Assembly: GCA_016795155.1 (NCBI GenBank)
Contig: JAEUIE010000020.1
Location: 1 to 34,086 of the forward strand
DNA: 34,086 bases
Direction: 5' to 3'
Source: Planctomycetia bacterium
GTDB taxonomy: Bacteria > Planctomycetota > Planctomycetia > Gemmatales > HRBIN36
Shown here one piece after another: positions 19,952 through 33,360 of this stretch. The notes under the pieces were generated by a model that saw only the letters and a list, made by a program, of their open reading frames with translations, had not been told where the DNA came from and did no database searches. Position numbers and translations under genes: made by a program. Position 1 is the stretch's first letter, and every line of letters starts with the position of its first letter.

Positions 19952-21072
19952 ACCACCCGCCCGGCATTCTGCATGCTCTGTATTCGTTGCGTGCCGAGGG
20001 GTGTCCGCGGCTCGCTTACGATTTGCTCGATCAGGAAATGAAGCAGACCGGCAGGCGGGGGTTTGTCACGCTGCTTGACCCGCAGGATGATCTCCGCCGG
20101 GATTATGATCAGCTGGGCATTCCGGTGCATCAACTGATATGGAAGCGGAAGAATTACATCTCAATTTATCAGCAGTTTCTCAAAGTGCTACATCAGTGGA
20201 AGCCTGCAGGCGTGGTGCTCTACCCGCTGGGCGCTCATATTTCCCTGTCGCTGGCCTGCCGGAAGCTGAAGATACCGCATGTGGTGCACCTGGCATGCTT
20301 GCCCCCCTGGCGGGATTTTTCCGCATTGCAAAAGTTGCGCGTGCAGATGTGGACCGGGCAAGTGACCACCGCTGCCTACGCTGCATGTTCTGAACGGGTC
20401 AGGCACGATTGCATCCGGGCGTATCGCTTGCCACCGGCATTGGTGCAAACGGTTTACAATGGCATCGCGCTGGATCGCTTTGATGCACTGCGAAGTCAGC
20501 GACAGCCGTGGACACCACATTCAGGCAAGCCTCTGATCATCGGTATGACCGGAAGCCTGGAACTCTCCAAGGATCATCCCACGCTGCTGCGGGCGGTTGC
20601 ACTACTGAAACAGCAGGGGCATAACCTTCGTTTGCGATTGGTGGGCGGAGGCACCCAGGCTGTTGCACTCAAGCAGCTAGCTTCGGAGCTGCAAATCAGC
20701 GATATTGTTGACTGGACCGGTTCTGTTCGCAATGTGCTGGCGGAGTTAGCTCGTTTTGATGTTTATGCTTTTTCCGCCAAGCCTGAAGAAGGCCTGGGCA
20801 TTGCTCTCATTGAAGCAATGGCGAGCGGCATGCCGGTGCTAGCTACGGATATTCCAGCCGTTCGCGAAATTTTCAAGCATCATCCGCATGGCGTCAAAGT
20901 ACCCTTTGGCGATGCTAAAGCGATGTCTACAGGAATTCTGAATGCCGCCCAACAACCAGCCGCCCCGCGCGAAGCGTTGACACCTTTTGATGTTGCACAG
21001 ACATTTCGGGAGTATGAAGACATTCTGGCATCACAGCGGCAAGATGGTTTCAGAAAGTTGTGGCAGGGGTAA
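19948..21072 (+). CDS. GT4 family glycosyltransferase (374 aa), ending inside a repeat
   Basis: A second GT-B enzyme, related to the one before: SLRAEGCPRLAYDLL N-terminal block, PLIIGMTGSLELSKDHPTLL, and the donor motif KPEEGLGIALIEAMASGMP. It is the last gene of the operon. Its final residues W-Q-G and the TAA stop are encoded by the first 13 bases of a family A repeat (21060 onward), so the repeat has defined the protein's C-terminus. The original end probably lay close by, as the length is ordinary. Substrate unknown. Confidence 0.86.
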   Translation: MNHPPGILHALYSLRAEGCPRLAYDLLDQEMKQTGRRGFVTLLDPQDDLRRDYDQLGIPVHQLIWKRKNYISIYQQFLKVLHQWKPAGVVLYPLGAHISLSLACRKLKIPHVVHLACLPPWRDFSALQKLRVQMWTGQVTTAAYAACSERVRHDCIRAYRLPPALVQTVYNGIALDRFDALRSQRQPWTPHSGKPLIIGMTGSLELSKDHPTLLRAVALLKQQGHNLRLRLVGGGTQAVALKQLASELQISDIVDWTGSVRNVLAELARFDVYAFSAKPEEGLGIALIEAMASGMPVLATDIPAVREIFKHHPHGVKVPFGDAKAMSTGILNAAQQPAAPREALTPFDVAQTFREYEDILASQRQDGFRKLWQG

Positions 21073-21205
21073 GCGGCCACGATACATATGTGCTCGTGCT
21101 GACAAGAGAGTAGCTTACCCCTGATGCCGTCACTGAACCCCAGGGGGCAGCGGCACTCTAACTACGCGTGGACTCTTACGATTGCAATCCGCTGACCCCT
21201 GGCAC
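21060..21205. repeat. Repeat family A, full copy 2, overlapping a gene end
   Basis: Starts GTGGCAGGGGTAAGCGGCC and ends TCCGCTGACCCCTGGCAC, with internal pairing GGTAAGC/GCTTACC (arm 1) and CAGGGGGCAGCGG/CCGCTGACCCCTG (arm 2). It closes the glycan operon and stops eight bases short of the PII-like gene's stop codon at 21213, so it fills the whole convergent gap. Confidence 0.88.
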
Positions 21206-21212
21206 GGATTTT

Positions 21213-21527
21213 CTAAAACTCAATCGCCTCGGGCCAACTCGCGTCAATGGTGACAATCTTTCCATCGCCCATGAGGCCGGTGTGAGCCACCTTGGCGATG
21301 GCTTTCGCTAGCACTTCTGCCACCTCATCTCTGGCCCAGATGGTGATTTCGACTTTGGGCAAAAAGGCCAGGTTGTATTCACTGCCTCGGTATTGCTCCA
21401 GATTATTTTTCTGCCTGCCGTACCCTTTCACTTCATCAACAATGCAGGCTTCCACTTCGTGCTGGGCCACGAGTTCCAGAACAGCAGTAGCCTGGAAGGG
21501 CTTGATGATAATCAAGAGTTGTTTCAT
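21213..21527 (-). CDS. PII-like nitrogen regulatory protein with altered C-terminus
   Basis: A 104-aa trimeric signalling protein of the GlnB/GlnK family by sequence: MKQLLIIIKPFQ start, DEVKGYGRQKNN, T-loop YRGSEY with Tyr51 (the uridylylation position in GlnB), FLPKVEI, and TGLMGDGKI with Lys90. In GlnB, Arg101 and Arg103 hold the ATP phosphates; here these positions are Ala and Glu and the chain ends at 104. ATP binding may be altered or lost. Its ATG overlaps the stop of a one-TM protein gene as ATGA, so the two are coupled. No glnA or amtB is nearby. Confidence 0.85.
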   Translation of the reverse strand: MKQLLIIIKPFQATAVLELVAQHEVEACIVDEVKGYGRQKNNLEQYRGSEYNLAFLPKVEITIWARDEVAEVLAKAIAKVAHTGLMGDGKIVTIDASWPEAIEF

Positions 21528-21952
21528 GGAGTGATTATAGCCTGATCCAGCGATTGCTTAAGCTGCTTGCTGTTTCCGCCACGATAATATGTTCTGCTTT
21601 CAAAGTTGGTGCCTGCAGCAAATGCTCCAACGCCTTCTACGCTGAAAAGTGATATGTGGTAACTGTTCCCGTTCTTCAAGGTTATGTCTAAATCCCCCAT
21701 TACAATCCACTTTGCAGGTGAACTATCACGCCTGGCAGGCAGGAGTGATTCCCAGATAGCAGGCCAGTGCTTGTCGGCAATCTCATGTTTTCCGGTTGAA
21801 GAAACATATTCGATCCGGGAGATGTCGTTCAACGCAGGAAGTGGCGAACGGAGAAGATACCAGAACGAGAGTACGATGATCGCAAAGGCAACGCCAGCTA
21901 CCGCCAGTTGTGTCCTGGTGATTCTGACGAATGCACTCGGTCCGGTGATCAT
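21524..21952 (-). CDS. One-TM protein coupled to the PII-like gene (142 aa)
   Basis: One hydrophobic helix (about 16-36, LAVAGVAFAIIVLSFWYLL) follows a short basic tail, then a polar domain of about 105 residues with IEYVSSTGKHEIA, WIVMGDLDITLKNG and TYYRGGNSKQL. The N-terminus is probably cytoplasmic with the domain outside the membrane. No known family. The start at 21952 has a GGAAG site six bases upstream. The stop overlaps the PII-like start by four bases, a pattern seen when partner proteins are made together, but interaction is only inferred. Confidence 0.72.
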   Translation of the reverse strand: MITGPSAFVRITRTQLAVAGVAFAIIVLSFWYLLRSPLPALNDISRIEYVSSTGKHEIADKHWPAIWESLLPARRDSSPAKWIVMGDLDITLKNGNSYHISLFSVEGVGAFAAGTNFESRTYYRGGNSKQLKQSLDQAIITP

Positions 21953-22053: not shown

Positions 22054-22581
22054 ATGAACGCAGCACGAATCTTCGCTATCCTGGCATGTCAATTAGTGTT
22101 GGTTTCTGCAAGCATCGCTCAGGAAAAAAATACCGAGCATACCATGAAACTCGCCGCAGGACAGAAATCGCCTGCAGCTACCATTGAGGATATGGCATGG
22201 TTTGCTGGCCGCTGGGTGGGCGACGGCATGGGTGGAAGCAACGAAGAACACTGGGGCCCGCCAAACGGTGGCATCATGCTAGGCACCTTCCGCCACAATA
22301 ATAAAGAAGGCAAGCCGGTTTTCTACGAGTTCATGAACCTTGCCGAGCGCGAAGGCACCATCTCGCTGCGGCTCAAACATTTCAACCCCGACATGACAGG
22401 CTGGGAAGAGAAAGCCAAATTCGTCGAGTTCAAACTGGTCGCCAAGAAAGACGGCGCAGTCTATTTCGAAGGACTGACCTTTGTACCCAAGGGAAAAGAT
22501 GAAGCAGTTATCTACTTGGCTATGCGAAGCAGAGACAAGGTGCGTGAAGAAGTGTTTCAACTCAAGCGGTTGAAGGAGTAG
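22054..22581 (+). CDS. Secreted DUF6265-like protein (175 aa)
   Basis: Signal peptide MNAARIFAILACQLVLVSAS with cleavage after IAQ, then a lipocalin-like domain: MAWFAGRWVGDGMGGSNEEHWGPP is the WF..GRW..EE.W pattern of the DUF6265 family, followed by GGIMLGTFRH and FYEFMNLAEREG. These proteins are of unknown function and lie in the periplasm or outside. AAGGAG is eight bases before the ATG, a good start. The protein matches the family's usual size. A half copy of repeat A follows 33 bases after the stop. Confidence 0.8.
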   Translation: MNAARIFAILACQLVLVSASIAQEKNTEHTMKLAAGQKSPAATIEDMAWFAGRWVGDGMGGSNEEHWGPPNGGIMLGTFRHNNKEGKPVFYEFMNLAEREGTISLRLKHFNPDMTGWEEKAKFVEFKLVAKKDGAVYFEGLTFVPKGKDEAVIYLAMRSRDKVREEVFQLKRLKE

Positions 22582-22614: not shown

Positions 22615-22678
22615 GTGGCAGGGGTAAGCGGCCGCGAGGAACAAGTGATCTCCGCTTCGCGAAAATAGCTTACCCCTG
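22615..22678. repeat. Repeat family A, half copy
   Basis: GTGGCAGGGGTAAGCGGCCG at the left and TAGCTTACCCCTG at the right, equal to the first arm of the copy at 21060. The second arm is missing. The ends pair as CAGGGGTAAGC/GCTTACCCCTG. The rest of the gap up to 22813 shows no gene. Confidence 0.8.
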
Positions 22679-33214: not shown

Positions 33215-33360
33215 GTGGCAGCGGGTCAGCGGATGCGCGAGATAGGTGTTCTCGCGGGCCCCATGAGCCGCTGCCCCCTGCACGCGGCGAAACAGCAGGG
33301 GGCAACGGTATATAGTTACATCGAGATCACCAGTGCTTGCAATCCGTTGACCCCTGCCAC
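33215..33360. repeat. Repeat family A, full copy 3
   Basis: GTGGCAGCGGGTCAGCGGA at the left, ATCCGTTGACCCCTGCCAC at the right, and the internal CAGCAGGGGGCAACGG found in the copy at 171. Length 146 bp. Like copy 1, it lies about 30-450 bases inside an IS copy. Confidence 0.87.

Follow-up and report, generated by a model that had tools for sequence, protein, structure and literature searches.

The window, by which we mean the whole 34,086-nucleotide stretch analysed here, carries on its reverse strand a gene with an ATG start for a PII-like protein of 104 residues (21213..21527) that is without Arg101 and Arg103. Upstream of it on the same strand lies the gene for a 142-residue protein with one transmembrane (TM) segment (21524..21952), whose stop codon shares the four bases ATGA (21524..21527) with the PII start codon, an overlap that might permit translational coupling and that is found in the window genome only. 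Divergent from this pair, on the forward strand, is a gene (22054-22581) for a protein with a strong DUF6265 domain and a probable signal peptide. The window is also threaded by an interspersed inverted repeat built on CAGGGGTMAGCGG (175-314, 21064-21123, 21141-21201, 22619-22678 and 33268-33356), with 24 matches at three or fewer mismatches against 8.4 expected and not one of 100 shuffles containing as many. One exact inverted pattern has just two copies in the genome, both of them in the window and on either side of the segment that holds the PII, TM and DUF6265 genes, and the repeat resembles REP elements.

The PII-like protein scores 48.4 bits against the Pfam P-II profile PF00543 (cut-off 25), while the NCBIfam equivalog models give it 83 bits, against cut-offs of 181 and 202. 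Its best match among solved structures is GlnZ, with a gap-free alignment over residues 1-97, GlnB and GlnK structures being matched as well, and the top Foldseek matches listed for its AF2 model (pLDDT 83.7) are all PII proteins, with E down to 2.8e-9; the model is a monomer, and the PII nucleotide site sits between the subunits of a trimer. The open reading frame and GlnB numbering bear out the residues reported in the earlier note, with Tyr51 and Lys90 kept, Ala at 101, Glu at 103 and the chain ending at 104 in the sequence WPEAIEF. The 2-oxoglutarate ligands Gln39 and Lys58 are present alongside the T-loop Tyr51. The same protein has further changes that went unmentioned there, namely T29I, W64, F92V, G41N, Y42N, R82H and R85L, the last two at positions where the other orthologues have invariant arginines. 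The earlier note had named orthologues with normal arginines as the sign of a sequence error, and this is not what the orthologues show. Orthologues of 103-104 residues and 47-61% identity, spread across the order, lack both arginines too and have the same short tail, so that a sequencing error or frameshift is ruled out.

The overlap with a gene for a single-pass protein was likewise described correctly, and prediction gives the upstream product a single TM helix (residues 12-33) followed by a compact outer domain (44-140, pLDDT mostly about 90 or more) for whose fold no significant match was found in the PDB. The protein belongs to a sporadic planctomycete family with the conserved motifs P.KW...G.L and G.F..G....R.YYRGG. 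The further suggestion that the PII variant is tied to this membrane partner failed on co-occurrence. None of 60 relatives has a homologue of the TM protein at E < 0.008, although 56 of them carry the PII variant; 298 genomes of the class hold five homologues at E < 1e-5 besides that of the window, and at the four of these loci that were examined no PII gene lies within about 1.5 kb. The overlap is hence a local arrangement, in which PII has the one-TM protein as a neighbour particular to this lineage and not as a conserved partner. A general pairing of the two genes across genomes is refuted, and the narrower idea that they form a functional signalling pair, which the ATGA overlap and a likely common transcription in the window genome would favour, appears highly improbable in the face of these absences. 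A different small membrane protein conserved in other genomes was also considered; the genes upstream of PII vary, and no common TM partner emerged.

The loss of Arg101 and Arg103 is the mark of a conserved clade, which strongly supports the suggestion in the earlier note that this is a PII variant. Strong orthologues (E < 1e-19) occur in 57 of 61 Gemmatales-type whole genomes, a set made up of the window's own and the 60 relatives; the search found none in G003, G043, G047 and G052. We compared 44 Gemmatales sequences with 27 others from the clade, and none of them has the RxRTGE tail. The 40 sequences taken from Gemmatales loci are 103-104 residues long and all but one end in Phe; with four more distant sequences added, the terminal Phe is found in 42 of 44 and the length ranges from 103 to 106. 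Among these 44, position 101 is commonly P, A, V, E or S, position 103 is Glu in 33, at least 40 have V, A, I, S or L in place of Thr29, and Trp64, whose presence accompanies these losses, is found in 36. Phe92 is usually retained. In the same set K58, Q39, R38, E50, G87, G89 and K90 are invariant, Tyr51 is kept in 41 and Ser49, which is a phosphorylation site in cyanobacterial PII, in 40; the 2-oxoglutarate ligands K9 or R9, Q39 and K58 are retained across the clade.

Outside the Gemmatales, the clade extends into the Pirellulales, where it is represented by named-record loci (L004-L006), by loci from a phylum search (L085-L088, L085 being near-identical to L005) and by 20 further sequences from many families. 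These 20 have no R.RT motif; 18 have Trp64, and all have Q39, E50, Y51, K58, R82, R85 and K90. Gemmatales and Pirellulales members stand behind one branch (SH-aLRT 99), separate from canonical PII, in a tree from a quick search over 96 columns, with the C-terminal columns excluded and most inner forks unsettled. Another set of short planctomycete PII proteins (L089-L099) lies on the canonical side of this tree and is also without the arginines, so tail loss may have occurred more than once. We conclude that the window protein is a member of a conserved planctomycete PII clade in which several nucleotide-gripping residues have been lost. The full-text literature that we searched, a body that misses most subscription journals, returned no description of the clade or of a ferredoxin-PII pair.

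The window copy itself is divergent. Its end branch measures 0.56 against a median of 0.16, and the family-invariant Arg82, Arg85 and Tyr42 have changed. For this copy alone, such features would fit a PII paralogue decaying under relaxed selection, an account that we nevertheless regard as improbable, given an intact reading frame, a chain length that is nearly fixed over many genera of Gemmatales and the many positions invariant in the clade (P10, K34, G35, R38-K40, E50, P57, K58 and G87-K90). The ancestral neighbours described below have been lost around it, with no ferredoxin homologue in the genome at E<=1e-8 and the reductase orthologue on another contig, and it may represent the function of the clade less well than its relatives do.

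PII is the textbook integrator of ATP/ADP and 2-oxoglutarate. In solved structures the nucleotide is contacted by T29', the backbone of 64', F92, G87, K90, R101' and R103', and 2-oxoglutarate by residues 9, 39, 41 and 58 (PMC8395244, PMC7919409). The canonical GlnB/GlnK nucleotide ligands Thr29, Arg101 and Arg103 are absent from the window protein and, save for a few occurrences of Thr29, from the whole clade. Set against the residues of the clade, these contacts indicate that the output loop and most 2-oxoglutarate ligands are retained and that several nucleotide side-chain ligands are gone. The ordinary PII paralogues of the same genomes stand in sharp contrast: all 16 that were read, including L001 of the window's genome (G000:C2:8829-9155), have T29, R101 and R103, with Ala or Gly at 64 and, in place of the lost Tyr51, commonly L, F, I or V. 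L001 itself has Phe at 51 and a short insertion preceding GQIGDGK. No ammonium transporter was matched in the window's genome, and the adjacent amtB of a GlnK-AmtB pair is accordingly missing.

It might be argued that the clade is simply ordinary PII, still sensing ATP/ADP and 2-oxoglutarate, with other basic residues such as Arg82 and Arg85 in place of the lost arginines. Neither of these two varies among 40 Gemmatales members and 20 others, G87, G89, K90, R38, Q39, K58 and usually F92 are kept, and the adenine contact at residue 64 is made through the backbone (PMC7919409). Since several of the contacts are thus backbone or retained residues (G87, G89, K90, R38 and Q39), ATP may still bind. 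Against this explanation stand the joint loss of the side-chain ligands T29, R101 and R103, the replacement of R103 by an acidic residue, Glu, in three quarters of the Gemmatales members (33/44), the retention of all three ligands by the ordinary paralogues in the same genomes, and the window copy, which is also without R82, R85 and F92. We therefore hold it to be possible but on the unlikely side.

Recurring neighbours of the clade were sought after the TM pairing had failed and were not predicted beforehand; for this, the positions of the PII variant, ferredoxin and GlnE were compared over the class sample already used for the TM protein. Outside the Gemmatales, 75 genomes have a strong match to the PII variant and 34 of them also a strong match to a [2Fe-2S] ferredoxin. 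In 31 of these 34, Pirellulales-type genomes representing 25 genera and 11 families, the ferredoxin gene lies directly upstream of PII on the same strand; the median gap is 48 bp, and 28 of the 31 ferredoxin genes lie within 150 bp. The ferredoxin clears the Fer2 cut-off by a small margin and has a CxxxxCxxC-type motif and further cysteines. The same ferredoxin is found about 0.9-1.8 kb upstream of PII in the Gemmatales genomes G001, G023 and G524. Of 45 Gemmatales loci, 10 have a FabG-like reductase gene upstream of PII, two of these at a distance of several hundred bases. In 12 Gemmatales loci, L046, L051, L056 and L075 among them, the region of the reductase and PII genes is also adjoined by a metallophosphoesterase-like gene that runs on the other strand.

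GlnE lies within 6 kb of the PII variant, mostly in convergent orientation, in 17 of 68 genomes from 10 genera and 5 families, eight of the 17 being supplied by one genus; the linkage was not seen in the Gemmatales loci examined. Estimates of how often such linkages would arise by chance are rough and take no account of kinship among the genomes. PF08335 matches in the 61 Gemmatales-type genomes come two per genome, mostly within one frame of about 1,000 residues; since GlnE domains are present in the Pirellulales homologue, we take this frame to be GlnE. This GlnE-like double-domain gene is present in 57 of the 61. G003 and G043 have neither GlnE nor any PII match, and the near-complete genomes G009 and G016 have the PII variant without a GlnE match, so that GlnE would be either not the sole target of the variant or no target at all. 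No separate GlnD was seen among the PF08335 matches, and classical GlnD control of Tyr51 may thus be absent; other modifiers of Tyr51 or Ser49 are possible.

We suggest, with a probability that we put roughly at 0.55, that the clade is a subtype of PII in which the nucleotide site has been remodelled and which acts in nitrogen assimilation. The clade-wide loss of R101/R103 and T29, together with the usual Trp64, makes altered handling of nucleotide or ligand plausible, and the other ligand suggested in the earlier note would be a plausible form of it. The protein would be a T-loop switch of the PII type whose most likely point of contact is the control of glutamine synthetase through GlnE, and in which ATP/ADP would no longer be read in the standard way. 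Two arrangements of the site can be envisaged. Nucleotide could bind weakly through backbone contacts, Lys90 and perhaps the family-conserved Arg82 and Arg85, or the phosphate site could be filled by the acidic C-terminus, that is, by Glu103 and the terminal carboxylate. The ferredoxin would suggest a redox input, or a supply of electrons, to the same pathway. A more specific version, in which a ferredoxin-PII operon conserved in Planctomycetia encodes a redox-linked PII whose T-loop is set by the Glu103/Phe104 carboxylate or by ferredoxin, and not by ATP, and whose output is GlnE-controlled glutamine synthetase, is speculative, and we consider it rather unlikely as it stands. As recurring neighbours, ferredoxin and GlnE give the clade named candidate partners.

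Several known systems invite comparison. PII-NG (Sant'Anna et al. 2009) is likewise a divergent PII branch tied to a gene context, and it reportedly keeps RIRTG and lies near metal efflux genes or pumps, neither of which was seen in the clade described here. SbtB, PstA and CPII are PII-like proteins with altered ligands, and they share with the clade the PII fold and an effector site that has been modified. In contrast to these, the clade has a sequence near that of true PII and a T-loop of the PII kind, and none of the three names occurs among the chains listed in a PDB sequence search with the window protein. With canonical PII (GlnB/GlnK/GlnZ, PF00543) the clade shares the fold, the core sequence, T-loop residues Q39, E50, Y51 and K58 and the B-loop G87-K90, and in structure matches the identity of the window protein reaches 45%. 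It departs from canonical PII in the loss of T29, R101 and R103, in the usual Trp64 and in a C-loop without RxRTGE. A clade that has kept the output loop and the 2-oxoglutarate ligands while dropping nucleotide ligands, beside an ordinary paralogue that retains the nucleotide ligands and has lost Tyr51, amounts to a natural experiment on which parts the PII switch requires.
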